Notes under the pieces: model-generated
Told to the model about the DNA's origin: nothing
The model's database searches: none
What the model saw: only the letters and a program-made list of their open reading frames with translations
From: Xestospongia bergquistia
Taxonomy: Eukaryota > Porifera > Demospongiae > Haplosclerida > Petrosiidae
Assembly: GCA_963965975.1 (NCBI GenBank)
Contig: OZ014414.1
Coordinates: 4,439,501-4,503,500 of the forward strand
Reading direction: 5' to 3'
DNA length: 64,000 bases
Shown: piece by piece, positions 32,042 through 63,196 of the stretch
Numbering within the stretch: position 1 is the first letter of the stretch
How the letters are laid out: each line of letters opens with the position of its first letter
Position numbers and translations under genes: made by a program

Positions 32042-32334
32042 ATAAAGTCCTTTAGACTGAGCAGTTTACTTTATGAACTACTCTCAATAGTCTAAACCTT
32101 CTAATGTCTTTAACTTAAAGACTTTAGAGCGTTAATGCAAACTAACTTACTAAACTGTTAATAGCTCTTTATTTAGTTAGTGCCATAGAGTCCTTTAGAC
32201 TGAGCAGTTTACATTTTAAACTTCTCTCAATAGTCTAAACCTTCTAAAGTGTTTAGCTTAAAGACTTTAGAGCGTTAATGCAAACTAACTTACTAAACTG
32301 TTAATAGCTGTTTATTTAGTTAGTGCCATAAAGT
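32005..32334 (-). repeat. Satellite, reverse island F
   Basis: About 2.3 monomers in reverse orientation. It returns to forward sense at 32334/32335, where GCCATAAAGT is joined to TAAGTTAAAGACTTTAG, that is, inside the central palindrome of a monomer. The forward DNA directly after it is the second copy of a segment of at least 2.7 kb, so island and duplication probably arose together. Confidence 0.93.
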
Positions 32335-32349
32335 TAAGTTAAAGACTTT

Positions 32350-41100: not shown

Positions 41101-41639
41101 GACTTTATGGCACTAACTAAATGAACTGCTATTAACAGTTTAGTAAGTAAGTTTGCGTTAACACTCTAAAGTCATTAAGTTAAAGACTTTAGAAGGTTTA
41201 GACTATTGAGTGAATCTTACAAAATAAACTGCTCTGTCTAAAGGACTTTATGGCACTAACTAATTAAAAAGCTATTAACAGTTTAGTAAGTTAGTTTGCA
41301 TTAACGCTCTAAAGTCTTTAAGTTAAAGACTTTAGAATGTTTAGACTATTGAGAGAATTTTATAAAGAAAACTGCTCAGTCTAAAGGACTCTATGGCACT
41401 AACTAAATAAACAGCTATTAACAGTTTAGTAAGTTAGTTTGCATTAGCGCTATAAAGTCTTTAAGTTAAAGACTTTAGAAAGTTTAGACTATTGAGAGAA
41501 GTTTATAAAGTAAACTGCTCAGTCTAAAGGACTTTATGGCACTAACTAAATAAAAAGCTATTAACAGTTTAGTAAGTAAGTTTGCATTAACACTCTAAAG
41601 TCATTAAGTTAAAGACGTTAGAAGGTTTAGACTATTGAG

Positions 41640-44600
41640 TGAATCTTACAGAATAAACTGCTCTGTCTAAAGGACTTCAAGGCACTAACTAAATAAACAG
41701 CTAATAACAGTTTAGTAAGTTAGTTTGCATTAATGCTCTAAAGTCTTTAAGTTAAAGATTTTAGAAGGTTTAGACTATTGAGAGAAGTTTATAAAGTAAA
41801 CTGCTCAGTATAAAGGACTTTATGGCACTAAATAAATAAACAGCTATTAACAGTTTAGTAAGTTAGTTTGCATTAACACTCTAAAGTCTTTAAGTTAAAG
41901 ACTTTAGAAGTTTTAGACTATTGAGAGAACTTTATAAAGTAAACTGCTCAGTCTAAAGGACTTTATGGCACTAACTAAATAAACAGCTATTAACAGTTTA
42001 GTAAGTTAGTTTGCATTAACGCTCTAAAGTCTTTAAGTTAAAGACTTTAGAACGTTTAAATTATTGAGAGAAGTTTATAAACTAAGCTGCTCAGTCTAAA
42101 GGACTTTATGGCAATAATTAAATAAACAGCTATTAACAGTTTAGTAAGTTAGTTTGCATTAACTCTCGAAGGTCTTTAAGTTAAAGACTTTAGAAGGTTT
42201 AGACTATTGAGTGACGCTTATAAAGTAAACTGCTCAGTCTAAAGGACTTTATGGCACTAACTAAATAAACAGCTATTAACAGTTTAGTAAGTTAGTTTGC
42301 ATTAACGCTCTAAGGTCTTTAAGTTAAAGACTTTACATTGTTTAGACTATTGAGTGACGCTTATAAAGTAAACTGGTCTCTCTAAAGGACTATATGGCAC
42401 TAACTAAATAAACAGCTATTAACATTTTATTAATTTAGTTTGAATTAACGCTCTAAAGTCTTTAAGTTAAAGACTTTAGAGGGTTTAGACTATTGCGAGA
42501 AGTTTATAAAGTAAACTGCTCAGTCTAAAGGACTTTATGGCACTAAGTTAATAAACAGCTATTAACAGTTTAGTAAGTTAGCTTGCATTAACGCTCTAAA
42601 GTCTTTAACTTATTGACTTTAGAAGGTTTAGACCATTGAGAGAAGTTTATACAGTAAACAGCTCAGTCTAAAGGACTTTATGGCACTATCTAAATAAACA
42701 ACTACTAACAGTTTAGTAAGCTAGTTAGCATTAATGCCCTAAAGTCTTTAAGTTAAAGACTTTAGAAGGTTTAGACTTTTGAGAGAAGTTAGTAAAGTAA
42801 ACTCCTCAGTCTAAAGGACCTTATGGCACTAACTAAATAAACAGCTATTAACAGTTTAGTAAGTTAGTTTGCATTAACGCTCTAAAGTCTTTAAGTTAAA
42901 GACTTTAGAAGGTTTAGATTATTGAGCGAACTTTATAAAGTAACCTGCTCAGTCTAAAGGACTTTATGGCACTAACTAAATAAACAGCTATTAACAGTTT
43001 TGTAAGTTAGTTTGCTTTAACGCTCTAAAGCCTTTCAGTTAAAGACTTTAGAAGGCTTAGACTATAGAGAGAAGTTTATAAAGTAAACTGCTCATTCTAA
43101 AGGACTTTATGGCACTAACTAAATAAACAACTATTAACAGTTTAGTAAGTTAGTTTGCATTAACGCTCTAAAGTCTTTAAGTTAAAGACTTTAGACGGTT
43201 TAGACTATTGAGAGAAGTTTATAAAGTAAACTGCTCAGTCTAAAGGACTTTATGGCACTAACTAAATAAACAACTATTAACAGTTTAGTAAGTTAGTATG
43301 CATTAACGCTCTAAAGTCTTTAATTTAAAGACTTTAGAAGGTTTAGACTATTGAGAGAAGTTTATAAAGTAAACTGCTCAGTCTAAAGGACTCTATGACA
43401 CTAACTAAATAAACAGCCATTAACAGTTTAGTAAGTTAGTTTGCATTAACGCTCTAAAGTCTTTAAGTTAAAGACTTTAGAAGGTTTAGACTATTGAGTG
43501 AATCTTACAAAATAAACTGCTCTGTCTAAAGGACTTCAAGGCACTAACTAAATAAACAGCTAATAACAGTTTAGTAAGATAGTTTGCATTAATGCTCTAA
43601 AGTCTTTAAGTTAAAGATTTTAGAAGGTTTAGACTATTGACAGAAGTTTATAAAGTAAACTGCTCAGTCTAAAGGACTTTATGGCACTAACTAAATAAAC
43701 AGCTATTAACAGTTTAGTAAGTTAGTTTGCATTAACGCTCTAAAGTCTTTAAGTTAAAGACTTTAGAAGTTTTAGACTATTGAGAGAACTTTATAAAGTA
43801 AACTGCTCAGTCTAAAGGACTTTATGGCACTAACTAAATAAACAGCTATTAACAGTTTAGTAAGTTAGTTTGCATTAACGCTCTAAAGTCTTTAAGTTAA
43901 AGACTTTAGAAGGTTTAAACTATTGAGAGAAGTTTATAAAGTAAGCTGCTCAGTCTAAAGGACTTTATGGCAATAACTAAATAAACAGCTATTAACAGTT
44001 TAGTAAGTTTGTTTGCATTAACGCTCGAAGGTCTTTAAGTTAAAGACTTTAGAAGGTTTAGACTATTGAGTGACGCTTATAAAGTAAACTGCTCAGTCTA
44101 AAGGACTTTAAGGCACTAACTAAATAAACAGCAATTAACAGTTTAGTAAGTTAGTTTGCATTAACGCTCTAAGGTCTTTAAGTTAAAGACTTTACATTGT
44201 TTAGACTATTGAGTGACGCTTATAAAGTAAACTGGTCTCTCTAAAGGACTATATGGCACTAACTAAATAAACAGCTATTAACATTTTATTAATTTAGTTT
44301 GAATTAACGCTCTAAAGTCTTTAAGTTAAAGACTTTAGAGGGTTTAGACTATTGAGAGAAGTTTATAAAGTAAACTGCTCAGTCTAAAGGACTTTATGGC
44401 ACTAAGTTAATAAACAGCTATTAACAGTTTAGTAAGTTAGCTTGCATTAACGCTCTAAAGTCTTTAACTTATTGACTTTAGAAGGTTTAGACCATTAAGA
44501 GAAGTTTATACAGTAAACAGCTCAGTCTAAAGGACTTTATGGCACTATCTAAATAAACAACTACTAACAGTTTAGTAAGCTAGTTTGCATTAACGCTCTA

Positions 44601-45350
44601 AAGTCTTTAAGTTAAAGACTTTAGAAGGTTTAGACTATTGAGAGAAGTTAGTAAAGTAAACTGCTCAGTCTAAAGGACCTTATGGCACTAACTAAATAAA
44701 CAGCTATTAACAGTTTAGTAAGTTAGTTTGCATTAACGCTCTAAAGTCTTTAAGTTAAAGACTTTAGAAGGTTTAGATTATTGAGCGAACTTTATAAAGT
44801 AACCTGCTCAGTCTAAAGGACTTTATGGCAGTAACTAAATAAACAGCTATTAACAGTTTTGTAAGTTAGTTTGCTTTAACGCTCTAAAGCCTTTCAGTTA
44901 AAGACTTTAGAAGGCTTAGACTATAGAGAGAAGTTTATAAAGTAAACTGCTCAGTCTAAAGGACTTTATGGCACTAACTAAATAAACAGCTATTAACAGT
45001 TTAGTAAGTTAGTTTGCATTAACGCTCTAAGGTCTTTAAGTTAAAGACTTTAGACGGTTTAGACTATTGAGAGAAGTTTATAAAGTAAACTGCTCAGTCT
45101 AAAGGACTTTATGGCACTAACTAAATAAACAACTATTAACAGTTTAGTAAGTTAGTATGCATTAACGCTCTAAAGTCTTTAAGTTAAAGACTTTAGAAGG
45201 CTTAGACTATTGAGAGAAGTTTATAAAGAAACTGCTCAGTCTAAAGGACTCGATGACACTAAATAAATAAACAGCCATTAACAGTTTAGTAAGTTAGTTT
45301 GCATTAACGCTCTAAAGTCTTTAAGTTAAAGACTTTAGAAGGTTTAGACT
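41640..45350 (+). repeat. 13-monomer (1859-bp) tandem duplication
   Basis: Rare variants recur at exactly 13 x 143 bp: TTATAAAGTAAACTGGTCTC followed by GGACTATATGG at 42361 and 44220, and AATCTTACA(G/A)AATAAACTG with GGACTTCAAGGC at 41641 and 43500. Both copies carry the unusual AACATTTTATTAATTTAG monomer. Copies differ at scattered bases. Confidence 0.9.
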
Positions 45351-46929
45351 ATTGAGAGAAGTTTATAAAGTAAACTGCTCAGTCTAAAGGATTTTATGGC
45401 ACTAACTAAATAAACAGCTGTTAATAGTTTAGTAAGTAAGTTTGCATTAACACTCTAAAGTCATTAAGTTAAAGACTTTAGAGAGTTTAGACTATTGAGA
45501 GAAGTTTATAAAGTAAACTGCTCAGTCTAAAGGACTTTACGGCGCTAAGTTAATAAACAGCTATTAACAGTTTAGTAAGTTAGTTTGCATTAACGCTATA
45601 AAGTCTTTAAGTTAAAGACTTTAGAAGGATTAGACTATTGAGAGATGTTTATAAAGTAAACTGCTCAGTCGTAAGGACTTTATGGCACTAACTAAATAAA
45701 CAGCTATTAACAGTTTAGTAAGTTAGTTTGCATTAACGCTCTAAAGTCTTTAAGTTATTGACTTTAAAAGGGTTAGACCATTGAGAGAAGTTTATACAGT
45801 AAACAGCTCCGTCTAAAGGACTTTATGGCACTGTCTAAATAAACAACTACTAACAGTTTAGTAATTTAGTTTGCATTAACGCTCTAAAGTCTTTAAGTTA
45901 AAGACTTTAGAAGGTTTAGACTATTGAGAGAGGTTTATAAAGTAAACTGCTCAGTCTAAAGGACTCTATGGCACTAACTAAATAAACAGCTATTAACAGT
46001 TTAGTAAGTTAGTTTGCATTAACGCTCTAAAGTCTTTAAGTTAAAGACTTTAGAAGGTTTAGATTATTGAGCGAACTCTATAAAGTAACCTGCTCAGTCT
46101 AAAGGACTTTATGGTACTAACTAAATGAAGAGCTATTAACAGTTTTGTAAGTTAGTTTGCATTAACGCTCTAAAGTCTTTAAGTTAAAGACTTTAGAAGG
46201 CTTAGATTATTGAGAGAAGTTTATAAGGTAAACTGCTCAGTCTAAAGGTCTTTATGGCACTAACTAAATAAACAGCTATTAACAGTTTAGTAAGTTAGTT
46301 TGCATTAACGCTCTAAAGTCTTTAAGTTAAGACTTTAGAATGTTTCGAGTATTGAGAGAAGTTTATAAATTAAACTGCTCAGTCTAAAGGACTCTATGAC
46401 ACTAACTAAGTTAACAGCCATTGACAGTTTAGTAAGTTAGTTTGCATTAACGCTCTAAAGTCTTTAAGTTAAAGACTTTAGAATGTTTAGACTATTGAGA
46501 GAAGTTTATAAAGTAAACTACTAAGTGTAAAGGACTTTATGGCACTAACTAAATGAACAGCTATTAATAATTTAGTAAGTAAGTTTGCATTAACACTCTA
46601 AAGTCATTAAGTTAAAGACTTTAGGGTTTAGGCTATTGAGAGAAGTTTATAAAGTAAACTGCTCAGTCTAAAGGACTTTATGGCACTAAGTTAATAAACA
46701 GCTATTAACAGTTTAGTAAGTTAGTTTGCATTAACGCTCTAAAGTCTTTAAGTTAAAGACTTTAGAAGGGTTTAGACTATTGAGAGACTTTTATAAAGTA
46801 AACTGCTCAGTCGTAAGGACTTTATGGCACTAGCTAAATAAACAGCTATTTACAATTTAGTAAGTTAGTTTGCATTAACGCTCTAAAGTCTTTAACTTAA
46901 AGACTTTAGAAGGTTTAGACTATTGAGAG

Positions 46930-47800
46930 AAGTTTATAAAGTAAACAACTCAGTGTAAAGGACTCTATGACACTAACTAAATAAACAGCAATTAACACTT
47001 TAGGAAGTTAGTTTGCATTAACGCTCTAAAGTCTTTAAGTTAAAGACTTTAGAAGGTTTAGACTATTGAGAGAAGTTTATAAAGTAAACTACTAAGTGTA
47101 AAGGAGTTTATGGCACTAACTAAATGAACAGCTATTAATAGTTTAGTAAGGAAGTTTGCATTAACACTCTAAAGTCATTAAGTTAAAGACTTTAGAAGGT
47201 TCTGACTATTGAGTGAATCTTACAAAATAAACTGCTCTGTCTAAAGGACTTTATGGCACTAACTAAATAAACAGCTTTTAACAGTTTAGTAAGTTAGTTT
47301 GCATTAACGCTCTAAAGTCTTTAAGTTAAAGACTTTAGAGGGTTTATACTATTGAGAGAAGTTTATAAAGTAAACAACTCAGTGTAAAGGACTCTATGAC
47401 ACTAACTAAATAAACAGCCATTAACACTTTAGGAAGTTAATTTGCATTAACGCTCTAAAGTCTTTAAGTTAAAGACTTTAGAAGGTTTAGACTATTGAGA
47501 GAAGTTTATAAAGTAAACTACTAAGTGTAAAGGAGTTTATGGCACTAACTAAATGAACAGCTATTAATAGTTTAGTATGTAAGTTTGCATTAACACTCTA
47601 AAGTCATTAAGTTAAAGACTTTAGAAGGTTCTGACTATTGAGTGAATCTTACAAAATAAACTGCTCTGTCTAAAGGACTTTATGGCACTAACTAAATAAA
47701 CAGCTTTTAACAGTTTAGTAAGTTAGTTTGCATTAACGCTCTAAAGTCTTTAAGTTAAAGACTTTAGAGGGTTTATACTATTGAGAGAAGTTTATAAAGT
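46930..47800 (+). repeat. 3-monomer (429-bp) tandem duplication
   Basis: The rare string GTAAACAACTCAGTG occurs at 46941 and 47370 (3 x 143). The three monomers that follow match in order, including ACACTTTAGGAAGTTA and GGTTCTGACTATTG. Few differences separate the copies. Confidence 0.9.
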
Positions 47801-50800
47801 AAACTGCTCAGTCTAAAGGACTTTATGGCACTAAGTTAATAAACAGCTATTAACAGTTTAGTAAGTTAGTTTGTATTAACGCTCTAAAGTCTTTAAGTTA
47901 ATGACTTTAGAAGGTTTAGACTATTGACAGATGTTTATAAAGTAAACTGCTCAGTCGTAAGGACTTTATGGCACTAACTAAATAAACAGCTATTAACAGT
48001 TTAGTAAGTTAGTTTGCATTAACGCTCTAAAGTCTTTAACTTATTGACTTTAGAAGGTTTAGACCATTGAGAGAAGTTTATACAGTAAACAGCTCAGTCT
48101 AAAGGACTTTATGGCACTATCTAAATAAACCACTACTAAGAGTTTAGTAAGTGAGTTTGCATTAACGCTCTAAAGTCTTTAAGTTAAAGACTTTAGAAGG
48201 TTTAGACTATTGAGAGAAGTTTATAAAGTAAACTGCTCAGTCTAAAGGACCTTATGGCACTAACTAAATAAACAGGTATTAACAGTTTAGTAAGTTAGGT
48301 TGCATTAACGCTCTAAAGTCTTTAAGTTAAAGACTTTAGAAGGTTTAGATTATTGAGCGAACTTTATAAAGTAACCTGCTCAGTTTAAAGGACTTTATGG
48401 CACTAACTAAATAAAGAGCTATTAACAGTTTTGTAAGTTAGTTTGCTTTAACGATCTAAAGCCTTTAAGTTAAAGACTTTAGAAGGCTTAGACTATTGAG
48501 AGAAGTTTATAAAGTAAACTGCTCAGTCTAAAGGACTTTATGGCACTAACTAAATAAACAACTATTAACAGTTTAGTAAGTTAGTTTGCATTAACGCTCT
48601 AAAGTCTTTAAGTTAAAGACTTTAGAAGGTTTAGACTATTGAGAGAATTTTATAAAGTAAACTGCTCAGTCTAAAGGACTCTATGACACTAACTAAATAA
48701 ACAGCCATTAACAGTTTAGTAAGTTAGTTTGCATTAACGCTCTAAAGTCTTTAAGTTAAAGACTTTAGAAGGTTTAGACTATTGAGAGAAGTTTATAAAG
48801 TAAACTACTAAGTGTAAAGGACTTTATGGCACTAACTAAATGAACAGCTGTTAATAGTTTAGTAAGTAATTTTGCATTAACACTCTAAAGTCGTTAAGTT
48901 AAAGACTTTAGAGAGTTTAGAATATTGAGAGAAGTTTATAAAGTAAACTGCTCTGCCTAAAGGACTTTATGGCACTAAGTTAATAAACAGCTATTAACAG
49001 TTTAGTAAGTTAGTTTGCATTAAGGCTCTAAAGTCTTTAAGTTGAAGACCTTAGAAGGTTTAGACTATTGAGAGATGTTTATAAAGTAAACTGCTCAGTC
49101 GTAAGGACTTTATGGCACTAACTAAATAAACAGCTATTAACAGTTTAGTAAGTTAGTTTGCATTAACGCTCTAAAGTCTTTAAGTTATTGACTTTAAAAG
49201 GCTTAGACCATTGAGAGAAGTTTATACAGTAAACAGCTCAGTCTAAAGGACTTTATGGCACTATCCAAATAAACAACTACTAACAGTTTAGTAAGTTAGT
49301 TTGCATTAACGCTCTAAAGTCTTTAAGTTAAAGACTTTAGAAGGTTTAGACTATTGAGAGAGGTTTACAAAGTAAACTGCTCAGTCTAAAGGACTCTATG
49401 GCACTAACTAAATAAACAGCTATTAACAGTTTAGTAAGTTAGTTTGTATTAACGCTCTAAAGTCTTTAAGTTAAAGACTTTAGCAGGTTTAGATTATTGA
49501 GCGAACTTTATAAAGTAACCTGCTCAGTCTAAAGGACTTTATGGCACTAACTAAATAAAGAGCTATTAACAGTTTTGTAAGTTAGTTTGCTTTAACGCTC
49601 TAAAGTCTTTAAGTTAAAGACTTTAGAAGGCTTAGATTATTGAGAGAATTTTATAAGGTAAACTGCTCAGTCTAAAGGACTTTATGGCACTAACTAAATA
49701 AACAGCTATTAACAGTTTAGTAAGTTAGTTTGCATTAACGCTCTAAAGTCTTTAAGTTAAAGACTTTAGAAAGTTTAGAGTATTGAGAGAAGTTTATAAA
49801 TTAAACTGCTCAGTCTAAAGGACTCTATGACACTAACTAAATAAACAGCCATGGACAGTTTAGTAAGTTAGTTTGCATTAACGCTCTAAAGTCTTTAATT
49901 AAAAACTTTAGAAGGTTTAGACTATTGAGAGATGTTTATAAAGTAAGCTACGAAGTGTAAAGGACTTTATGGCACTAACTAAATGAACAGCTATTAATAG
50001 TTTAGTAAGTAAGTTTGCATTAACACTCTAAAGTCATTAAATTAAAGACTTTAGAGGGTTTAAGCGATTGAGAGAAGTTTATAAAGTAAACTGCTCAGTC
50101 TAAAGGACTTTATGGCACTAAGTTAATAAGCAGCTATTAACAGTTTAGTAAGTTAGTTTGCATTAACGCTCTAAAGTCTTTAAGTTAAAGACTTTAGAAG
50201 GTTTAGACTATTGAGAGACTTTTATAAAGTAAACTGCTCAGTCGTAAGGACTTTCTGGAACTAACTAAAAAAACAGCTATTAACAGTTTAGTAAGTTAGT
50301 TTGCATTAACGCTCTAAAGTCCTTAAGTTAAAGACTTTAGAAGGTTTAGACTATTGAGAGAAGTTTATAAAGTAAACAACTCAGTCTAAAGGACTCTATG
50401 ACACTAACTAAATAAACAGCCATAAACAGTTTATTAAGTTAGTTTGCATTAACGCTCTAAAGTCTTTAAGTTAAAGACTTTAGAAGGTTTAGACTATTGA
50501 GAGAAGTTTATTAAGTAAACTACTAAGTGTAAAGGAGTTTATGGCACTAACTAAATGAACAGCTATTAATAGTTTAGTAAGTAATTTTGCATTAAAACTC
50601 TAAAGTCATTAAGTTAAAGACTTTAGAAGGTTCAGACTATTGAGTGAATCTTACAAACTAAACTGCTCTGTCTAAAGGACATTATGGCACTAACTAAATA
50701 AACAGCTATTAACAGTTTAGTAAGTTAGTTTGCATTAACGCTCTAAAGTCTTTAAGTTAAAGACTTTAGAAGGTTTAGACTATTGAGAGAAGTTTAAAAA

Positions 50801-53800
50801 GTAAACTGCTCAGTCTAAAGGACTTTATGGCACTAACTAAAGAAACAGCTTTTAACAGTTTAGAAAGTTTGTTTGCATTAACGCTCTAAAGTCTTTAAGT
50901 TAAAGTCTTTAGAAGGTTTAGACTATTGAGAGAAGTTTATAAAGTAAACTGCTGAGTCTAAAGGACTTTATGGCACTAACTATATGAACAGCTATTAACA
51001 GTTTAGTGAGTAAGCTTGCGTTAACACTCTAAAGTCATTAAGTTAAGGACTTTAGAAGGTTTAGACTATTGAGTGAATCTTACAAAATAAACTGCTCTGT
51101 CTAAAGGACTTTATGGCACTAACTAAATAAACAGCTATTAACAGTTTAGTCATTTAGTTTGCATTAACGGTCTAAAGTCTTTAAGTTATTGACTTTAGAA
51201 GGTTTAGACTATTGAGAGAAGTTTATAAAGTAAACTACTCAGTCTAAAGGACTTTATGGCACTAAGTTAATAAACAGCTATTAACAGTTTAGTAAGTTAG
51301 TTTGCATTAACGCTCTAAAGTCTTCAAGTTAAAGACTTTAGAAGGTTTAGACTATTGAGACATGTTTATAAAGTAAACTGCTCTGTCGTAAGGACTTTAT
51401 GGCACTAACTAAATAAACAGCTATTAACAGTTTAGTAAGTTAGTTTGCGTTAACGCTCTAAAGTCTTTAAGTTAAAGACTTTAGAAGGTTTAGACTATTG
51501 AGAGAAGTTTATAAAGTAAACTGCTCAGTCTAAAGGACTCTATGGCACTAAGTTAATAAACAGCTATTAACAGTTTAGTAAGTTAGTTTGCATTAACGCT
51601 CTAAAGTCTTCAAGTTAAAGACTTTAGAAGGTTTAGACCATTGACAGATGTTTATAAAGTAAACTGCTCAGTCGTAAGGACTTTATGGTACTAACTAAAT
51701 AAACAGCAATTAACAGTTTAGTAAGTTAGTTTGCATTAACGTCTAAAGTCTTTAAGTTAAAGACTTTAGAAGGTTTAGACTATTGAGAGAAGTTTATAAA
51801 GTAAACTGCTCAGTCTAAAGGACTTTATGGTACTAACTAAATAAACAGCTATTCACAGCTTAGTAAGTTAGTTTGCATTAACACTCTAAAGTCTTTAAGT
51901 TAAAGACTTTAGAAGCTTTAGACTATTGAGAGAAGTTTATAAAGTAAACTGCTCAGTCTAAAGGACCTTATGGCACTAACTAAATAAACTGCTATTAACA
52001 GTTTAGTAAGTTAGTTTGCATTAGCGCTATAAAGTTTTTAAGTTAAAGACTTTAGAAGGTTTAGATTATTGAGCGAACTTTATAAAGTAACCTGCTCAGT
52101 CTAAAGGACTTTATGGCACTAACTAAATAAAGAGCTACTAACAGTTTTGTAAGTTAGTTTGCTTTAACGCTCTAAAGTCTTTAAGTTAAAGACTTTAGAA
52201 GGCTTAGACTATTGAGAGAAGTTTATAAAGTAAACTGCTCAGTCTAAAGGACTTTATGGCACTAACTAAATAAACAGCTATTAACAGTTTAGTAAGTTTG
52301 TTTGCATTAACGCTCTAACGTCTTTAAGTTAAAGACTTTAGAAGGTTTAGACTATTGAGAGAAGTTTATAAAGTAAACCACTAAGTGTAAAGGAGTTTAT
52401 GGCACTAACTAAATGAACAGCTATTAATAGTTTAGTAAGTAAGTTTGCATTAAAACTCTAAAGTCTTTAAGTTAAAGACTTTAGAAGGTTCAGACTATTG
52501 AGTGAATCTTACAAAATAAACTGCTCTGTCTAAAGGACTTTATGGCGCTAACTAAATAAACAGCTATTAACAGTTTAGTAAGTTAGTTTGCATTAACGCT
52601 CTAAAGTCTTTAAGTTAAAGACTTTAGAAGGTTTAGACTATTGAGAGAAGTTTATAAAGTAAACTGCTCAGTCTAAAGGACTTTATGGCACTAACTAAAT
52701 GGACTGCTATTAACAGTTTAGTAAGTTTGTTTGCATTAACGCTCAAAGTCTTTAAGTTAAAGACTTTAGATTGTTTAGACTATTGAGAGAAGATTATAAA
52801 GTAAACTGCTGAGTCTAAAGGACTTTATGGCACTAACAATATGAACAGCTATTAACAGTTTAGTAAGTAAGTTTGCGTTAACACTCTAAAGTCATTAAGT
52901 TAAGGACTTTAGAAGGTTTAGACTATAGAGTGAATCTTACAAAATAAACTGCTCTGTCTAAAGGACTTTATGGCACTAACTAAATAAACATCTATTAACA
53001 GTTTAGTAAGTTAGTTTGCATTAACGCTCTAAAGTCTTTAAGTTAAAGACTTTAGAAGGTTTAGACTATTGAGAGAAGTTTATAAAGTAAACTGCTCAGT
53101 CTAAAGGACTTTCTGGCACTAACTAAATAAACAGCTATTAACACTTTAGTAAGTTAGTTTGCATTAACGCTCTAAAGTCTTTAAGTTAAAGACTTTAGAA
53201 GGTTTAGACTATTGAGACATGTTTATAAAGAAAAGTGCTCTGTCGTAAGGACTTTATGGCACTAACTAAATAAACAGCTATTAAAAGTTTAGTAAGTTAG
53301 TTTGCGTTAACGCTCTAAAGTCTTTACGTTAAAGACTTTAGAAGGTTTAGACTATTGAGAGACGTTTATGAAGTAAACTGCTCAGTCTAAAGGACTTTAT
53401 GGCACTAAGTTAATAAACAGCTATTAACAGTTTAGTAAGTTAGTTTGCATTAACGCTCTAAAGTCTTTAAGTTAAAGACTTTAGAAGGTTTAGACTATTG
53501 AGAGAAGTTTATAAAGTAAACTACTAAGTCTAAAGGACTTTATGGCACTAACTAAATAAACAGCTATTAACAGTTTAGTAAGTTAGTTTGCATTAACGCT
53601 CTAAAGTCTTTAAGTTAAAGACTTTAGAAGGTTTAGACTGTTGAGAGAAGTTTATAAAGTAAACTTCTCAGTCTAAAGGACTTTATGGCACTAACTAAAT
53701 AAACAGCTATTAACAGTTTAGTAAGTTAGTTTGCATTAACGCTCTAAAGTCTTTAAGTTAAAGACTTTAGAAGGTTTAGACTATTGAGTGACGCTTATAA

Positions 53801-55604
53801 AGTAAACTGCTCTGTCTAAACAACTTTATGGCACTAACTAAATAAACAGCTATTAACAGTTTAGTAAGTTAGTTTGCTTTAATGCTCTAAAGTCTTTAAG
53901 TTAAACACTTTACAAGGTTTAGACTATTGAGAGACGTTTATAAAGTAAACTGCTCAGTCTAAAGGACTTTATGGCACTAACTAAATAAACAGCTATTAAC
54001 AGTTTAGTAAGTTAGTTTGCATTAACGCTCTAAAGTCTTTAAGTTAAAGACTTTAGAAGGTTTAGACTATTGAGAGAAGTTTATAAAGTAAACTGCTCTC
54101 TCTAAAGGAATTTATGGCACTAACTAAATAAACAGCTATTAACAGTTTAGTAAGTTAGTTTGCATTAACGCTCTAAAGTATTTAAGTTAAAGACTTTAGA
54201 ATGTTTAGACTATTGAGAGACGTTTATGAAGTAAACTGCTCAGTCTAAAGGACTTTATGGCACTAACTAAATAAACAGCTATTAACAGTTTAGCAAATTA
54301 GTTTGCATTAACGCTCTAAAGTCTTTAAGTTAAAGACTTTAAAAGGTTTAGACTATTGAGTGACGCTTATAAAGTAAAATGCTCTGTCTAAAGAACTTTA
54401 TGGCACTAACTAAATAAACAGCTATTAACAGTTTAGTAAGTTAGTTTGCATTAACGGTCTAAAGTCTTTAAGTTAAAGACTTTAGAAGGTTTAGACTATT
54501 GATAGAATTTTATAAAGTAAACTGCTCAGTCTAAAGGACTTTATGGCACTAACTAAATAAACAGCTATTAACAGTTTAGTAAGTTAGTTTGCATTAACGC
54601 TCTAAAGTCTTTAAGTTAAAGACTTTAGAAGGTTTAGACTATTGAGAGAAGTTTATAAAGTAAACTGCTCAGTCTAAAGGACTTTATGGTACTAAATAAA
54701 TAAAGAGCTATTAACAGTTTAGTAAGTTAGTTTGCATTAAAGCTCTAAAGTCTTTAAGTTAAAGACTTTAGAAGGTTTAGACTATTGAGTGACGCTTATA
54801 AAGTAAAGTGCTCAGTATAAAGGACTTTATGGCGCTAACTAAATAAACAGCTATTAACAGTTGAGTAAGTTAGTTTGCATTAATGCTCTAAACTCTTTAA
54901 GTTAAAGACTTTAGAAGGTTTAGACTATTGAGAGAAGTTTATAAAGTAAACTGCTCTCTCCAAAGGAATTTATGGCACTAACTAAATAAACAGCTATTAA
55001 GAGTTTAGTAAGCTAGTTTGCATTAACGCTCTAAAGTCTTTAAGTTAAAGACTTTAGAAGGTTTAGACTATTGAGAGAGGTTTATGAAGTAAACTGCTCA
55101 GTCTAAAGGACTTTATGGCACTAACTAAATAAACAGCTATTAACAGTTTAGTAAGTTACTTTGCATTAACGCTCTAAAGTCTATAAGTTAAAGACTTTAG
55201 AATGTTTAGACGATTGAGTGAAGTTTATAAAGTAAACTGCTCAGTCTAAAGGACTTTATGGCACTAAATAAATAAACAGCTATTAACAGTTTAGTAAGAT
55301 AGTTTGCATAAACACTATAAAGTCTTTAAGTTAAAGACTTTAGAAGGTTTAGACAATTGAGAAAAGTTTATAAAGGAAAATTCTCAGTCTAAAGGACTTT
55401 ATGGCACTAACTAAATAAACTGCTATTAACAGTTTAATAAGTTAGTTTGCTTTAATGCTCTAAAGTCTTTAAGTTAAAGACTTTAGAAGGTTTAGACTAT
55501 TGATAGAATTTTATAAAGTAAACTGCTCAGTCTAAAGGACTTTATGGCACTAACTAAATAAACAGCTATTAACAGTTTAGTAAGTCAGTTTGCGTTGACG
55601 CTCT

Positions 55605-56530
55605 AAAGTCTTTACGTTAAAGACTTTAGAAGGTTTAGTCTATTGAGAGATGTTTATAAAGTAAACTGCTCAGTCTAAAGGACTTTATGGCACTAAGTTA
55701 ATAAACAGCTATTAACAGTTTAGTAAGTTAGTTTGCATTAACGCTCTAAAGTCTTTAAGTTAAAGACTTTAGAAGGTTTAGACTATTGAGAGAAGTTTAT
55801 AAAGTAAACTGCTCAGTCTAAAGGACTTTATGGCACTAACTAAATAAACAGCTATTAACAGTTTAGTAAGTTAGTTTGCATTAACGCTCTAAAGTCCTTA
55901 AGTTAAAGACTTTAGAAGGTTTAGACCATTGAGAGAAGTTTATAAAGTAAACTGCTCAGTCTAAAGGACTTTATGGCACTAACTAAATAAACAACTATTA
56001 ACAGTTTAGTAAGTTAGTATGCATTAACGCTCTAAAGTCTTTAATTTAAAGACTTTAGAAGGTTTAGACTATTGAGAGAAGTTTATAAAGTAAACTGCTC
56101 AGTCTAAAGGACTCTATGACACTAACTAAATAAACAGCCATTAACAGTTTAGTAAGTTAGTTTGCATTAACGCTCTAAAGTCTTTACGTTAAAGACTTTA
56201 GAAGGTTTAGTCTATTGAGAGATGTTTATAAAGTAAACTGCTCAGTCTAAAGGACTTTATGGCACTAAGTTAATAAACAGCTATTAACAGTTTAGTAAGT
56301 TAGTTTGCATTAACGCTCTAAAGTCTTTAAGTTAAAGACTTTAGAAGGTTTAGACTATTGAGAGAAGTTTATAAAGTAAACTGCTCAGTCTAAAGGACTT
56401 TATGGCACTAACTAAATAAACAGCTATTAACAGTTTAGTAAGTTAGTTTGCATTAACGCTCTAAAGTCCTTAAGTTAAAGACTTTAGAAGGTTTAGACCA
56501 TTGAGAGAAGTTTATAAAGTAAACTGCTCA
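55605..56530 (+). repeat. 4-monomer (572-bp) tandem duplication
   Basis: TTTAGTCTATTGAGAGATG recurs at 55632 and 56204, and GTCCTTAAGTTAAAG recurs about 572 bp apart (4 x 143). It is a local amplification in the otherwise more uniform right part of the array. Confidence 0.85.
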
Positions 56531-56691
56531 GTCTAAAGGACTTTATGTACTCACTAAATAAACAGCTATTAACAGTTTAGTAAGTTAGTTTGCATTAACG
56601 CTCTAAAGTCTTTAAGTTAAAGACTTTAGAAGGTTTAGACTATTGAGAGAAGTTTATAAAGTAAACTGCTCAGTATAAAGGACTTTATGGC

Positions 56692-56834
56692 ACTAACTAA
56701 ATAAACAGCTATTAACAGTTTAGTAAGTTAGTTTGCATTAACGCTCTAAAGTCTTTAAGTTAAAGACTTTAGAAGGTTTAGACTATTGAGAGAAGTTTAT
56801 AAAGTAAACTGCTCAGTCTAAAGGACTTTATGGC
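56692..56834 (+). repeat. Reference satellite monomer with three dyads
   Basis: A near-consensus 143-bp monomer given as a coordinate key. Dyad 1 has arms 56692-56708 and 56716-56732 (14 of 17 paired, outer ACTAACT/AGTTAGT) around a 7-base loop. Dyad 2 is a perfect palindrome, arms 56746-56758 and 56760-56772 around a single G. Dyad 3 is nested: TTTAGACT (56777-56784) pairs with AGTCTAAA (56815-56822), and inside it AGTTTA (56794-56799) pairs with TAAACT (56805-56810). About 114 of 143 bases lie within a dyad. The consensus has 43 G or C in 143 by hand count. What the dyads do is unknown. Confidence 0.93.
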
Positions 56835-59800
56835 ACTAACTAAATAAACAGCTATTAACAGTTTAGTAAGTTAGTTTGCATTAACGCTCTAAAGTCTTTA
56901 AGTTAAAGACTTTAGAAGGTTTAGACTATTGAGTGACGCTTACAAAGTAAACTGCTCTGTCTAAAGAACTGTATGGCACTAACTAAATAAACAGCTATTA
57001 ACAGTTTAGTAAGTTAGTTTGCTTTAATGCTCTAAAGTCTTTAAGTTAAAGATTTTAGAAGGTTCAGACTATTGAGAGAAGTTTATAAAGTAAACTGCTC
57101 AGTCTAAAGGACTTTATGGCACTAACTAAATAAACAGATATTAAGAGTTTAGTAAGTTAGTTTGCATTAACGCTCTAAAGCCTTTAAGTTAAAGACTTTA
57201 GAAGGTTTAGACTGTTGAGAGAAGTTTATAGAGTAAACTGCTCAGTCTAAAGGACTTTATGGCACTAACTAAATAAACAGCTATTAACAGTTTAGTAAGT
57301 TAGTTTGCATTAACGCTCTAAAGTCTTTAAGTTAAAGACTTTAGAAGGTTTAGACTATTGAGATAAGTTTATAAAGTAAACTGCTCAGTCTAAAGGACTT
57401 TATGGCACTAACTAAATAAACAGCTATTAACAGTTTAGTAAGTTAGTTTGCATTAACGCTCTAAAGTCTTTAATTTAAAGACTTTAGAAGGTTTAGACTA
57501 TTGAGAGAATTTTATAAAGTAAACTGCTCAGTCTAAAGGACTTTATGGCACTAACTAAATAAACAGCTATTAACAGTTTAGTAAGTTAGTTTCCATTAAC
57601 GCTCTAAAGTCTTTAAGTTAAAGACTTTAGAAGGTTTAGACAATTGAGTGACGCTTATGAAGTAAACTGCTCTGTCTAAAGAACTTTATGGCACCAACTA
57701 AATAAACAGCTATTAACAGTTTAGTAAGTTAGTTTGCTTTAATGCTCTAAACTCTTTAAGTTAAAGACTTTAGAAGGTTTAGACTATTGAGTGATGCTTA
57801 TAAAGTAAACTGCTCTGTCTAAAGAACTTTATGGCACTAACTAAATAAACAGCTACTAACAGTTTAGTAAGTTAGTTTGCTTTAATGCTCTAAAGTCTTA
57901 ATGTTAAAGACTTTAGAAGGTTTAGACTATTGAGAGATGTTTATAAAGTAAACTGCTCAGTCTAAAGGACTTTATGGCACTAACTAAATAAACAGCTATT
58001 AACAGTTTAGTAAGTTAGTTTGCATTAACACTCTAAAGTCTTTAAGTTAAAGACTTTAGAAGGTTTAGATTATTGAGCGAAGTTTATAAAGTAAACTCCT
58101 CAGTCTAAAGGACTTTATGGCACTAACTAAATAAACAGCTATTAAAAGTTTAGTAAGTTAGTTTGCAGTTAACGCTCTAAAGTCTTTAAGTTAAAGCCTT
58201 TAGAAGGTTTAGACTACTGAGAGAAGTTTATAAAGTAAACTGCTCAGTCTAAAGGACTTTATGGCACTAACTAAATAAACAGCTATTAACAGTTTAGTAA
58301 GTTAGTTTGCTTTAATGCTCTAAAGTCTTTAAGTTAAAGACTTTAGAAGGTTTAGACTATTGAGAGAAGTTTATAAAGTAATCTGCTCAGTCTAAAGTAC
58401 ATTATGGCACTAACTAAATAAACAGCTATTAACAGTTTAGTAAGTTAGTTTGCATTATCGCTCTAAAGTGTTAAGTTAAAGACTTTAGAAGGTTTAGACT
58501 ATTGAGAGAAGTTTATAAAGTAAACAGCTCAGTCTAAAGGACTTTATGACATTAACTAAATAAACAGCTATTAACAGTTTAGTAAGTTAGTTTGCGTTAA
58601 CGCTCTAAAGTCTTTAAGTTAAAGACTTTATAACGTTTAGACTATTGAGAGAAGTTTATAAAGTAAACTGCTCAGTCTAAAGGACTTTATAGAACTAACT
58701 AAATAAACAGCTATTAACAGTTTCGTAAGTTAGTTTGCGTTAACGCTCTAAAGTCTTTAAATTAAAGACTTTATAAGTTTTAGACTATTGAGAGAAATTT
58801 ATAAAGTAAACTGCTCGGTCTAAAGGACTTTATGACACTAACTAAATAAGCAGCTATTAACAGTTTAGTAAGTGAGTTTATATTAATGCTCTAAGGTCTT
58901 TAACTTAAAGACTTTAGAAGGTTTAGACAATTGAGAGAAGTTTATAAAGTAAACTGCTCTGTCTAATGGAGTTTATGGCACTAACTAAATAAACAGCTAT
59001 TAACAGTTTAGTAAGTTAGTTTGCATTAACGCTCTAAAGTCTTTAAGATAAAGACTTTAGAAGGTTAAGACTATTGAGTGAAGTTTATAATGTAAACTGC
59101 TCAGTCTATAGGACTTTATGGCACTAACTAAATAAACAGCTATTAACAGTTTAGTAAGTTAGTTTGCATTAACTCTCTAAAGTCTTTAAGTTAAAGACTT
59201 TAGAATGTTTAGACTATTGAGAGAAGTTTATAAAGTAAACTGCTCAGTCTAAAGGACTTTATGACACTAACTAAATAAACAGCTATTAACAGTTTAGTAA
59301 GTTAGTTTGCATTAACGCTCTAAAGTCTTTAAGTTAAAGACTTTAGAAGGTTTAGACTATTGAGAGAAGTTTATAAAGTAAACTGCTCAGTCTAAAGGAC
59401 TTTATGACACTAACTAAATAAGCAGCTATTAACAGTTTAGTAAATGAGTTAATATTAACGCTCTAAAGTCTTTAAGTTAAAGACTTTAGAAGGTTTAGAC
59501 TATTGAGAGTAGTTTATAAAGTAAGCTGCTCTGTCTAATGGACTTTATGGCACTAACTAAATAAACAGCTATTAACGGTTTAGTAAGTTAGTTTGCATTA
59601 ACGCTCTAAAGTCTTTAAGTTAAAGACTTTAGAAGGTTTAGACTATTGAGTGAAGTTTATAATGTAAACTGCTCAGTCTATAGGACTTTATGGCACTAAC
59701 TAAATAAACAGCTATTAACAGTTTAGTAAGTTAGTTTGCATTAACGCTCTAAAGTCTTTAAGTTAAAGACTTTAGATGGTTTAGACTATTGAGAGAAGTT

Positions 59801-60186
59801 TATAAAGTAAACTGCTCTGTCTAAAGGACCTTATGGCACTAACTAAATAAACAGCTATTAACAGTTTAGTAAGTTAGTTTGCATTAACGCTCTAAAGTCT
59901 TTAAGTTAAAGACTTTAGAAGGTTTAGACTTTTGTTAGAAGTTTATAAAGTAAACTGCTCATTCTAAAGGACTTTATGGCACTAACTAAGTAAACAGCTA
60001 TTAACAGTTTAGTAAGTTTGTTTGCATTAACGCTCTGAAGTCTTTAAGTTAAAGACTTTAGAAGGTTTACACTATTGGGAGAAGTTTATAAAGTAAAGTG
60101 CTCAATCTAAAGGACTTTATGGCACTAACGAAATAAACAGCAATTAACAGTTTAGTAAGTTAGTTTGCATTAACGCTCTAAAGTCT

Positions 60187-60290
60187 TTAACCCTTTCACG
60201 GGCAGTTGCGCAATTTTGCGCAGGCGAATGTAATTATTGAGTGGGCGGTAGTGCAATTTTGCGCTGCAGCCATTACCAGGAGACCTAGAC
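60187..60290 (+). mobile_element. piggyBac-like left terminus
   Basis: The satellite stops at TTAA (60187-60190), inside the central palindrome of a monomer, and is followed directly by CCCTTTCACGGGC. A TTAA target followed by CCC is the hallmark of piggyBac-family ends. A perfect 16-bp palindrome TGCGCAATTTTGCGCA lies at 60207-60222, and its core GCAATTTTGCGC is repeated at 60253-60264. Known piggyBac ends have comparable subterminal repeats. No matching right end or second TTAA-flanked satellite edge is present, so the element is truncated, rearranged or misread. I see no piggyBac transposase. Confidence 0.6.
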
Positions 60291-60736
60291 TTTTTTTTGA
60301 AAGCAACAACGCGAAGGCATTTGTAAATACTCGTTTGCAAAGCTAAAGACACAGCGAAGGCATCATCGCTTCGTAAGGCAGAATGTTCATGCAGTTGCCT
60401 TCTGTAACAGACCTCCAATTGATAGCTCCACCCAAATAAATTTACAGGATATGATTATTTCATTATGAGATGTGTCCAAGAAAACCTTCGTTGTGCACTT
60501 TGTTTACATCGTTTGGCTTAGAACAAAGTATCAACAGACTCCCCACACAACGAAGAGATCAACTGTATGCTCATAAAGATGATCAGTCGAGTTCTTCTGT
60601 TTCAGATATGGCTTCGAAATGTAAGCGTTTTTTGTCGTAGTATAGTACAGAGTTGAGCTTTCATTATACGGCTTTTCTTGTTGTTATGGTAAAAACAACA
60701 ACCTATATATCCTGTCACACTAGTTTGATTTTACAG
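60291..60736. other. Non-satellite interval without a clear gene
   Basis: Unique-looking AT-rich sequence between the element end and the first recognisable exon. It holds a 57-codon open frame including the stop (60470-60640) with GTAAGC near its end, but joining that site to the next acceptor makes an immediate stop. A short hairpin has TTGTTGTT (60678-60685) facing AACAACAA (60694-60701). A pyrimidine-rich stretch leads to GATTTTACAG at 60727-60736. It could be 5' flank or first-exon sequence of the gene relic downstream. No promoter is recognised. Confidence 0.4.
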
Positions 60737-60903
60737 AAGAATGCACAGTCGGTTTTGTAGGAAGTATGAGAATGGTTATGATCTACCTGACATCAGATAT
60801 GAAAAATGGAAAAAAATATTCCATCCTGAAGAATTATCTTTAGATGCTACAGCATGTAAATCCAGTGATGGAGACATCAGTCTCAGTGAAGTAGATGAGA
60901 ATA
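60737..60903 (+). CDS. Exon 1 of gene relic, charged N-terminal segment
   Basis: A 167-bp open segment preceded by GATTTTACAG and ended by GTAAGTG at 60904. Read from 60738, an ATG follows at 60741. The translation has a basic-aromatic first half, with YENGYDLPDIRYEKWKKIFH and then PEE, and an acidic serine-rich second half ending SLSEVDEN. The frame leaves one base over (phase 1), matching the next exon. The YENGYDL..IRYEKWKKIFHPEE part looks like a folded conserved motif rather than chance, but I cannot assign it to a named family. Translation may start at the ATG or in a lost upstream exon. On the paper frame there is no stop before the donor. Confidence 0.55.
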
Positions 60904-61057
60904 GTAAGTGATACAGCCTGAGGTTAATTATACTTTGAATTTATGGCTTGCTATTTTAGAAAGTGCACTAGAACAGTCACCAAATGTTCTCAAATTTCCA
61001 GTATGTGTAATGTAGATATATATTTTAGTATTTTTGAGTTAATTATACTTGTTACAG

Positions 61058-61147
61058 GGAGGAAGAGATGTACCAGAAGTACTAGCAAGAGAAGTGAAGA
61101 AGAGATAGGACTCTATGAATATGACAAGAATGGACTCAGTGATAATG
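61058..61147 (+). CDS. Exon 2a, first copy of the 30-codon repeat exon
   Basis: A 90-bp segment between TTGTTACAG and GTATGTG. Joined in phase 1 it encodes a basic start, RRKRCTRSTSKRSEEE, then IGLYEYDKNGLSDN. Because it begins and ends in phase 1, it can be duplicated or skipped without changing frame. Two further copies follow at 248-bp spacing, together with the intron. A longer open frame (60943-61155) that includes this exon is intron read-through upstream of it. The function of the segment is unknown; the KRK-type basic run could be a nuclear localisation or nucleic-acid contact, which is inference. Confidence 0.6.
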
Positions 61148-61305
61148 GTATGTGACATTATATTATAATTAACCCTTTAATAGTGGCTTGCCATTTTAGA
61201 AACTACACTAGAGCAGTCAAAGACATTACCTAAAAATTCTCAAATTTCCAGGATGTGTAATGTATATATATTGAAGTATTTTAAAGTTAATTATCCTTGT
61301 TACAG

Positions 61306-61395
61306 GGAGGAAGAGATGTACCATAAATACTAGCAAGAGAAGTGAAGAAGAGATAGGACTCTACGAATATGACAAGAATGGACTCAGTGATAATG
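61306..61395 (+). CDS. Exon 2b, second copy of the repeat exon
   Basis: 90 bp, 248 bp downstream of the first copy. Same splice borders and phase, and open in frame. Relative to copy 2a the first codon becomes Gly by the join, and RS becomes IN (ACCATAAATACT for ACCAGAAGTACT). The rest is unchanged at protein level (TAT to TAC is silent). The near identity of exon and intron copies indicates a recent tandem duplication of exon plus intron. Confidence 0.6.
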
Positions 61396-61553
61396 GTATG
61401 TGACATTATATTATAATTAACCCTTTAATAGTGGCTTGCCATGTTAGAAACTACACTAGAGCAGTCAAAGACATTACCTAAAAATTCTCAAATTTCCAGT
61501 ATGTGTAATGTACATATATTGAAGTATTTTAAAGTTAATTATCCTTGTTACAG

Positions 61554-61643
61554 GGAGGAAGAGATGTACCAAAAGTACTAGCAAGAGAAGATAAAAAAAG
61601 ATAGGACTCAGTGAATATGACAAGAATGGACTCAGTGATAATG
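61554..61643 (+). pseudogene. Exon 2c, third copy, with an in-frame stop
   Basis: 90 bp, a further 248 bp on, with intact splice borders. A cluster of changes in the middle (AGAAGATAAAAAAAGATAGG where the others have AGAAGTGAAGAAGAGATAGG) creates TAA at 61592-61594 in the phase-1 frame. Length is still 90, so skipping this copy would keep the downstream finger in frame. Either the copy is dead and the locus a pseudogene, or it is a skippable poison exon. Decay is the simpler reading. Confidence 0.6.
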
Positions 61644-61784
61644 GTATGTGACATTATACTATAATTAACCCTTTAATAGTGGCTTGCCATTTTAGAAACT
61701 ACACTAGAGCAGTCAAAGAATAACCTGACAACCAGTATGAAAATATTCACAATATAATAATACAATTCATGTATTTCATTACAG

Positions 61785-61938
61785 AAAAACTATCAGCATG
61801 TTCTAATAATTTATGTTTTCACACTAAAGCGACTAATTGGGTGGAATGTGAAAAATGTTTCCAGTGGTACCACATGGTATGTCTTGGGATCAAGAAAGAA
61901 AATCACTAAATTTTGTTTGTTTTATGTGTGACATATAA
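61785..61938 (+). pseudogene. Terminal exon with frameshifted PHD-like zinc finger
   Basis: After CATTACAG, joined in phase 1, the frame gives C-x4-C, then WVECEKCFQWYHMVCLGI, then stops at TAA 61907-61909. Shifting frame at about 61902 gives FVCFMC and a stop at 61936-61938. Together the ligands read C-x4-C-x10-C-x2-C-x4-H-x2-C-xn-C-x2-C, the C4HC3 order of a PHD finger; the W-Y-H block before the sixth ligand is typical of PHD fingers that bind histone tails. The last Cys pair is cut off by a one-base loss, so the finger as written would not close. PHD-like fingers also end some DNA-transposon proteins, so the context does not decide host gene or transposon. Confidence 0.65.
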
Positions 61939-62001
61939 TAATTAACTACTAGACTTTTTGTAGTAAAATTATTTTTTCATGCACAGTGAATTTGAATAAT
62001 T

Positions 62002-62041
62002 AATAAACAGTATTTGTGATTGTCAAGTTTGAGTTAATAAA
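62002..62041 (+). promoter_or_regulatory. Two AATAAA polyadenylation signals
   Basis: AATAAA at 62002-62007 and 62036-62041, about 65 and 100 bp after the last stop of the finger exon, on the same strand. Position fits the 3' end of the gene relic. In AT-rich DNA the hexamer is common, so each alone is weak. Confidence 0.4.
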
Positions 62042-62370
62042 TATCAAGAACTTATCACCTACTTTAGAAAAGAACTTCTCTTAAATGTCCGTTTATTCGT
62101 CCATGAGTTCATGTTTTCAAAGAGATGTATATTCAGAACTGTACGTAGAAATTTCTCCAAATTTTGACAGTTAATTCTTTACATATTATATACTGTTCAA
62201 AAGCAGAGATAATGTTCAAGCTATAATTGTTATCAAGATATGGTCATCGTTCAAATCTACATAAGAATGTCCGTTTTATCATGATCTCAAGTGTACAGGA
62301 TATATGCTTGTAAATTGTGGAAAAAGGTTTCTTTTTCAGTATATTCTTTGCAATAACTATATGATGGATT
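62042..62370. other. AT-rich interval, nothing recognised
   Basis: About 330 bp without satellite similarity, open frame, splice pattern or repeat that I can support. It separates the gene relic from the structured repeat next to the second satellite block. Confidence 0.5.
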
Positions 62371-62448
62371 GGGGCACTCGAAGCTGGTGTCGAAAGTCAG
62401 CTTCGAATGCTCTGTTTATTTAAAAACAGTAAAAACACCAGAGTGTCC
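62371..62448. repeat. Branched inverted-repeat structure
   Basis: Outer arms GGGGCACTC (62371-62379) and GAGTGTCC (62441-62448) pair with one G-T wobble. Next CTGGTGT (62384-62390) pairs with ACACCA (62435-62440) after a GAAG bulge. Inside are TCGAA/TTCGA (62390-62394, 62402-62406) and CTGTTT/AAACAG (62412-62417, 62424-62429). The fold is a three-way junction of about 78 bases. It lies 20 bp before the satellite resumes. It could be the structured end of a mobile element. No known RNA family is recognised. Confidence 0.55.
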
Positions 62449-62467
62449 GATCATTGAGCCACGCCTC

Positions 62468-63196
62468 TAATGGGACTAACTAAATAAACTGCAATTAACA
62501 GTTTAGTAAGTTGGTTTGCATTAATGCTCTAAAGTCTTTAAGTTAAAGACTTTAGAAGGTTTAGACTATTGAGTGAAGTTTATAAAGTAAACTGCACAGT
62601 CTAAAAGACTTAATGTGACTAACTAAATAAACGGCTATTAACAGTTTAGTAAGTTGGTTTGCGTTAACGCTCTAAAGTCATTAATTTAAAGACTTTAGAA
62701 GGCTAGACTATTGAGTGAAGTTTATAAAGTAAACTGCTCAGTCTAAAGGACTAAATGGGACTAACTAAATAAAGTGCAATTTACAGTTTAGTAAGTTGGT
62801 TTGCTTTAACGCTTTAAAGTCTTTACTTTTAAGACTTTAGAAGGTTTAGACTATTGCGTGAAGATTATAAAGTAAATTGTTCAGTCTAAAAGACTTAATG
62901 GGACTAACTAAATAAACTGCTATTAACAGTTTAGTAAGTTGGTTTGCATTAAGGGTCTAAAGTCTTTAATTTAAAGACTTTAGAAGGTTTAGACTATCGA
63001 GTTAAGTTTATAAAGTAAACTGCTCAGTCTAAAAGAGTTAACGTTACTAACTAAATAAACTGCAATTAACATTTTAGTAAGTTGGTTTGAATTAACGCTC
63101 TAAAGTCTTTAATTTAAAGACTTTAGAAGGTTTAGACTATTGAGTGAAGTTTATAAAGTAAACTGCTCAGTCTAAAGGATTTAATGGTACTAACTA
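62468..63196 (+). repeat. Satellite, diverged five-monomer block H
   Basis: Monomers start at about 62472, 62615, 62757, 62900 and 63043 (spacings 143, 142, 143, 143). They share a private set of changes against the main array: GGGACTAAC for GGCACTAAC, AAACTGCAATTAAC for AAACAGCTATTAAC, TTGGTTTG for TTAGTTTG, ATTGAGTGAAG, and TTTAATTTAAAG at the palindrome centre in most copies. They join non-satellite DNA at 62467/62468 in a different monomer position from the left break at 60190, so the two edges are not simply the two halves of one interrupted monomer. The block is interrupted at TA 63195-63196. Confidence 0.93.

Follow-up and report, generated by a model that had tools for sequence, protein, structure and literature searches.

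We analysed a window of 64,000 nucleotides from the sponge Xestospongia bergquistia (assembly GCA_963965975.1, contig OZ014414.1, positions 4,439,501 to 4,503,500; C4:4439501-4503500 in the contig numbering used here). The genome searched was the 146-Mb assembly of 21 contigs (C1, C2 and so on). Near the right end of the window, three exons of 90 nt follow one another in the tail of a truncated transposase gene, which belongs to a pogo-type DNA transposon labelled here as family A. The layout of this transposon is as follows:

60724..62467, + strand: family A pogo-type DNA transposon, 3' part only (the 5' part is missing), from alignment to the full-length dispersed copies L009-L017
60724..60903, + strand: end of the large transposase exon, with its 3' border in phase 1, placed by eye against L009 and L011
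60904..61057, + strand: first intron of the array, 154 nt, GTAAGT..TTACAG
61058..61147, + strand: repeat exon 1, 90 nt, open in phase 1
61148..61305, + strand: internal intron, 158 nt
61306..61395, + strand: repeat exon 2, 90 nt, open in phase 1
61396..61553, + strand: internal intron, 158 nt
61554..61643, + strand: repeat exon 3, 90 nt, with an in-frame TAA
61644..61784, + strand: last intron, 141 nt
61785..61938, + strand: terminal exon with the PHD finger, starting in phase 1, end read by eye

Judging from the sequence, the three exons are probably a short, decayed sample of a frame-neutral tandem exon array in a pogo-type transposase gene, in which one exon would correspond to one protein repeat. 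The order of such a gene would be a large transposase exon, then a series of phase-1 mini-exons (the units), and then the PHD exon.

The tripled exon and its transposon

A sequence-only reading of the same DNA had proposed three 90-nt exons at a period of 248 bp, each running from phase 1 to phase 1 between GT..AG introns. Tandem Repeats Finder (period 248 bp, 3.0 copies, score 1315) and the reading of the borders confirm this structure, in which all four introns start with GTAAGT or GTATGT and end with TTACAG; the related proposal, that each phase-symmetric exon adds 30 codons without breaking the frame, is supported as well. The copies had been described as nearly identical, which holds for exons 1 and 2 (97%) and for the two internal introns (98%) but not for exon 3 (92% identical to exon 1 and 90% to exon 2). 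By eye, the intron before exon 1 is related to the internal introns though diverged from them, and the last intron combines a head homologous to them with a unique tail. The transposase remnant is open at 60729-60911 and, near its start, frame-shifted relative to the dispersed copies (by eye). The PHD exon is frame-shifted relative to those copies too, being matched in two frames in a protein search with the PHD exon. The 3' terminal inverted repeat ends at 62467, and TA comes next at 62468-62469.

Family A is a pogo-type element by its domains, its target site and the length of its four-unit copies. The Pfam models found in copy L011 are DDE_1 (1.1e-28), HTH_psq (1.3e-8) and PHD (5.9e-6); its transposase exon is open over 628 codons, and the same exon of L015 is open throughout. 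The best relative of the L011 PHD finger in PDB is the PHD of KDM5B (3.9e-6), while the transposase has no match at 0.01 among the PDB sequences and a single unit exon has no match in Pfam. The protein has a DD35D spacing, counted by eye, and DD29-36D is given for the Tigger family in PMC7386202. The dispersed copies L009-L016 run to about 5 kb, these eight four-unit copies measuring 4970-4992 bp, and two copies with more units (L023 with 5244 bp and L021 with 5788 bp) exceed the total length of 1.2-5.2 kb reported for the pogo superfamily (PMC7386202). Among 16 copies scanned for their ends, 11 have both ends, all 11 with TA on both sides and with differing flanks; four have the 3' end only, each with TA, and L024 has neither end. 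The terminal inverted repeats are imperfect, 17 of the first 24 bases pairing by eye.

Two four-unit copies lie on C1 in opposite orientation (C1:22860469-22864179 and C1:22880472-22884180), with about 16 kb between the elements, and are 100% identical across the 1701-bp transposase query.

The sequence-only reading had placed the exons in a gene relic within satellite DNA and explained them by a single recent triplication unique to the locus. The first part stands in that a decayed copy does lie inside a 143-bp satellite, but the gene is a transposase and not a host gene. That units 1 and 2 resemble each other so closely, as the internal introns do, would suit a recent local triplication in a host-gene relic. 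We nevertheless regard this explanation as scarcely tenable, and a host-gene relic as ruled out, since the element recurs as many dispersed copies that have TA target sites and encode a transposase, some of them with other unit numbers, and since three units are present in 27 copies spread over seven contigs. Elsewhere in the genome, exons homologous to these have identical borders. The array is a property of the transposon family, and it most likely predates the arrival of the window copy in the satellite. This copy would then be a dead passenger, truncated at the 5' end, marked by an acquired stop and frameshifts, and amplified together with the satellite.

Unit number and reading frame in family A

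To count units, border patterns were searched at the donor of the transposase exon (59 places) and at the PHD acceptor (58 places), which gave 54 pairs. The distance between the borders corresponds to one unit in 2 pairs, two in 13, three in 27, four in 9 and five in 2, and the remaining pair (L024) contains an insertion. The three-unit copies are found on C4, C5, C6, C7, C10, C13 and C15; clustered copies on these same contigs make up much of the census and are not independent insertions, and the copies whose satellite flanks were read are some of those on C4-C7. Among the five unpaired donor places, L022 has 8 units, L018 has 3, L028 has one decayed unit and L027 has none, C7:4879382 being left out of the reading; four acceptor places are also unpaired. 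In the copy L021, where part of the transposase is absent, there are 14 unit acceptors, of which 13 are accompanied by a donor. L027 has a fused intron that, by eye, begins as the first intron and ends as the last one, the switch falling inside a stretch common to both; this is what would be expected if units were lost through recombination between introns.

A candidate with 20 units at C2:6565787 (L024) was rejected, since its 5050-bp distance holds two unit acceptors 4658 bp apart, which indicates an insertion between them.

The lengths of the parsed exons are multiples of three in 98 of 101 units (72 of 90 nt, 17 of 87, 8 of 99 and 1 of 66). The three other units (91, 86 and 125 nt) belong to L023, L028 and the satellite copy L020, respectively; all are otherwise damaged, and the 125-nt unit and the one after it have a single donor in common. 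An open phase 1 is seen in 84 of the 101 units, an open phase 0 in 5 and an open phase 2 in 2, and the introns of the dispersed copies measure 152-164 nt without stepping by three. Every border in the tail of the family A gene is in phase 1, so the number of units is free to vary while the frame of the PHD finger is kept. These data bear on whether the array could be a non-coding minisatellite within one long intron, its GT/AG borders and open frames being coincidental. The lack of clear amino-acid constraint on the family A exon would be compatible with such a repeat. We consider it very doubtful, however, as the exon part varies solely by multiples of three outside the damaged copies, phase 1 is strongly preferred, the splice signals are kept, and the format is common to several families.

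Sister families and substitution patterns

Relatives were collected by a protein search with the transposase (48-52% identity; best 70 of 1534 candidates scored), and more were added through a search with the PHD exon. Their arrays were read either onwards from the transposase or back from the PHD finger, and the families were labelled B to I. Several of them have tandem arrays of exon plus intron between the transposase and the PHD exon, with exon sequences that differ from those of family A:

Family B (L032+L034, L036 and L038): 20, 13 and 19 units, exons of 60 or 84 nt, introns of 40-42 nt; the 52 units of the three copies have no stop in phase 1
Family C (L031): a 54+42 nt arrangement, four units (exons of 54/36 nt), phase 1 open in 3 of 4
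Family D (L035): 15 units of 66 nt, of which phase 1 is open in all 15, phase 0 in none and phase 2 in one
Family E (L037, L042 and L043): 11 units each, 33 in total, with exons of 54 or 60 nt and phase 1 open throughout
Family F (L039): an array with a period of about 110 bp
Family G (L040): three units of 72/72/63 nt, phase 1 being the only open phase
Family H (L044): three units of 66/126/78 nt
Family I (L045): 8 units of 60/57/48 nt, phase 1 open in 8 of 8

The three family B copies share flanks of 547 and 690 bp at 99.4-99.9% identity, yet these enclose 20, 13 and 19 units, which implies that the length of the array changed recently. Within families B and D, introns vary in length by 1-2 nt, and in family I the spread reaches 14 nt.

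The relation of the transposases was recognized by tblastn for families B, C, D, E, F and I, the weakest being F (2e-9). The family B transposase is 48% identical to that of family A over 427 residues and has domains in common with it (DDE_1 2.1e-26, HTH_psq 1.9e-7), together with HTH_Tnp_Tc5 (7.7e-6), which was found only in B. When the terminal exon was read in three phases from the acceptor placed by eye, only phase 1 was PHD-like in all six families so read (B, C, E, F, G and I), with Pfam PHD values from 0.0015 to 3.4e-7. The PHD scores lie above the curated cut-off of 24 bits in A (26.6), E (24.5), F (30.6) and G (28.2), and below it in B (19.0), C (21.1) and I (23.2); the terminal exon of family D looked frame-shifted by eye. 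We also read seven extra PHD loci, six picked across the list of PHD matches and one (L043) taken as a second copy of family E. Six of the seven have an array, with periods of 103-174 bp, although that of L044 amounts to just 1.9 copies; L042 proved to belong to E too. No array is present at the remaining locus, L041, where the frame upstream of the PHD matches a ZSWIM RNase H-like model (2.5e-8). Outside this genome, prokaryote genomes and viral contigs gave 22 and 10 pattern matches, respectively, with no relative by tblastn and thus no confirmed relative.

Two further loci show variations of the gene tail. The PHD exon of family C holds a four-fold, in-frame repeat of 30 bp, or 10 codons (L031, 2938-3057), so repeat growth also occurs inside an exon of the gene tail. 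At L033 (1750-2830), a sister element with a PHD finger 68% identical has one decayed unit-like exon before the PHD exon (by eye); it appears to have lost its transposase exon, and tblastn finds no transposase match there.

The nine family peptides are unlike each other over their full length, and all of them are net basic, with charges of +1 to +4. The motif TR[SGR] is present in eight of the nine, a number that none of 20000 composition shuffles reaches, a figure that overstates the case because the motif was picked post hoc. The ratio of nonsynonymous to synonymous changes (N:S) among units shows amino-acid changes above the neutral share in family B (36:3, P 0.0015), family D (26:4, P 0.045) and family I (14:1, P 0.040), with P values that are uncorrected and derive, like all those given here, from non-independent units. 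Relative to neutrality, N:S is 4.8 in B, 2.6 in D and 5.8 in I, with no excess in E (11:3, P 0.37) or in A. Taken singly, the three B copies give P values of 0.0051, 0.074 and 0.0040, and the subsets of family A (L022, L021 and the dispersed copies) give 0.84, 0.78 and 0.90. The excess in B, D and I is a lead only.

Surroundings of the window copy

The remaining features of the window are these:

1..60190, + strand: 143-bp satellite array around the element
60190..60723, + strand: another dispersed repeat, with the left end TTAA-CCCTTT, adjoining the truncated transposon
62468..63196, + strand: 143-bp satellite, continuing 3' of the element

The repeat at 60190-60723 has at least 41 matches including the window itself (best 40 of 169 candidates scored), many of which share only its 224/226-534 part, and its junction with the transposon is spanned, among the matches listed, only by three copies on C4. 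The base skew of the satellite flips its sign across three 2-kb steps (18001-24000), probably marking a block of about 6-7 kb of the 143-bp array in inverted orientation. At 63197-63990 the satellite is interrupted by an insertion with inverted ends of 24 bp, ACTCTGTC(T/C)GAGTTGAGAAAAGCC, and TA at its borders (by eye). It looks like another small TA-target DNA transposon, and its longest open stretch, of 175 amino acids, is without a significant Pfam match.

The clustered copies of family A stand at long and fairly regular distances (123, 116, 116, 122, 16 and 125 kb on C5, and about 205 kb for several on C13). This regularity suggests very long higher-order units composed of satellite and embedded elements.

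Interpretation of the exon arrays

In the reading that we favour, a tandem exon array within a transposase gene, each exon would insert between the DDE domain and the PHD finger one hydrophilic, net basic repeat rich in Ser, Thr and Arg, which in family A is 30 residues long, and all units would be spliced into one protein. Units would be gained and lost through recombination of their near-identical introns, either by unequal exchange or by gap repair during transposition, and the repeats may act as a basic chromatin- or nucleic-acid-binding linker from the catalytic domain to the histone-reading tail.

Several observations weigh against this reading. Joined family A exons gave no match at 0-2 mismatches in the genome (ranked by mismatches, the best 100 of 168 matches each have 3), and processed copies with joined family B exons were not found at up to 3 mismatches. 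Outside family A, exon borders were picked by eye with the splice signals and the frame in view, so the multiple-of-three lengths and the phases are there partly a matter of choice; differences between unit lengths that are multiples of three are independent of this choice. Many units of family B have a second possible acceptor 4 nt upstream, and one unit of its copy L038 is read through its intron, the donor being unmatched. Phase 0 is also open in family E (33 of 33), family I (6 of 8) and family C (3 of 4), and in family H all 3 units are open in phase 0 but only 1 of the 3 in phase 1. Family F has one clean 60-nt unit among 8 parsed rows, and tblastn finds no transposase for G and H in the DNA examined.

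The substitution pattern of family A belongs with these objections. Counting open units only, with 17 of 101 dropped for stops or length shifts, N:S is 36:16, about 0.65 of neutral (P 0.94), and selection on amino acids is not detectable. Changes per site are alike in exons and introns of the internal units (0.69 v 0.70). The transposase of nine dispersed copies is equally neutral (46:17 against an expected 0.712:0.242); the yardstick itself being neutral, the test has no power in family A. Near-neutral ratios are as expected of copies that decay after insertion.

A different use of the units can be envisaged, given that the DNA alone does not force all of them into one mRNA: they could be mutually exclusive or alternatively included, with one or few per transcript, giving each element many transposase isoforms. 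We find this unlikely, as some copies have no unit, just one, or about 14, and the identity of units within an array is so high that choosing among them would change little.

The arrays could also matter as DNA or RNA, for instance by many short introns aiding expression or shielding the element from small-RNA silencing, the peptide being incidental. Exon sequences that are wholly different among families, within an exon-intron format that is kept, would fit this proposal, and so would introns that vary less than exons in family B (3/40 and 4/42 sites against 11/60 and 13/84) and in family D (9/49 against 25/66). The opposite is found in family E, whose introns vary more than its exons (8/49 against 6/54 and 5/60). 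The multiple-of-three length changes, together with openness in the frame of the host gene, suggest that translation matters, and the motif shared by eight of nine peptides, chosen post hoc as it was, points the same way. On balance an incidental peptide seems improbable.

Returning to the translated exon array, a broader and more tentative version of it is that a pogo-PHD clade keeps a fast-evolving tail of one repeat per exon, maintained and re-expanded repeatedly, whose peptide becomes unrecognizable from one family to the next and changes its amino acids above the neutral share in some arrays (B, D and I, not E or A), as in a conflict with the host, and in which the number of exons might tune or diversify the transposase. 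We hold this to be possible, though it may well prove wrong.

The transposases of cut-and-paste elements are usually regarded as compact, with few introns in their genes. With its DDE_1 and HTH_psq domains, TA target sites, short imperfect terminal inverted repeats and length of about 5 kb, family A resembles the pogo superfamily (Tigger-like), but it differs in that its transposase ends in a PHD finger encoded by an exon of its own and that mini-exons are arrayed in variable number; in two surveys of pogo elements, PMC7386202 and PMC7325037, the main text contains no words beginning with "intron", "exon" or "PHD". Among the literature matches listed, the titles and the first parts of the abstracts hold no description of exon arrays in a transposase.

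Three known systems are partly comparable. RAG2 carries a PHD, and in each unit of LPA kringle IV type 2 exons and introns are in phase. RAG2-type systems likewise tie a PHD-type chromatin reader to a DNA transposase system (PMC4411706), whereas here the PHD finger is the tail of the transposase itself, after the array of repeat exons. The coding variable-number tandem repeat of LPA kringle IV type 2 is also a tandem coding unit of variable copy number (PMC11462820), but it belongs to one host gene and has a 5.6-kb unit, while the present units are of about 0.1-0.25 kb and occur in several families of transposons. Mutually exclusive tandem exon duplications share the arrangement of homologous exons in tandem (PMC9013439); those are in host genes, unlike the present arrays, which have up to 20 units.

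Related families thus hold up to about 20 tandem mini-exons, and family B copies with 99.4-99.9% identity in their flanks differ in how many they have. Should the exons be translated, this would be a natural system in which the number of protein repeats changes through the gain and loss of exons at many sites in one genome. One could then study directly the expansion of exon repeats, and ask whether transposons vary the tail of their transposase as a response to the host.
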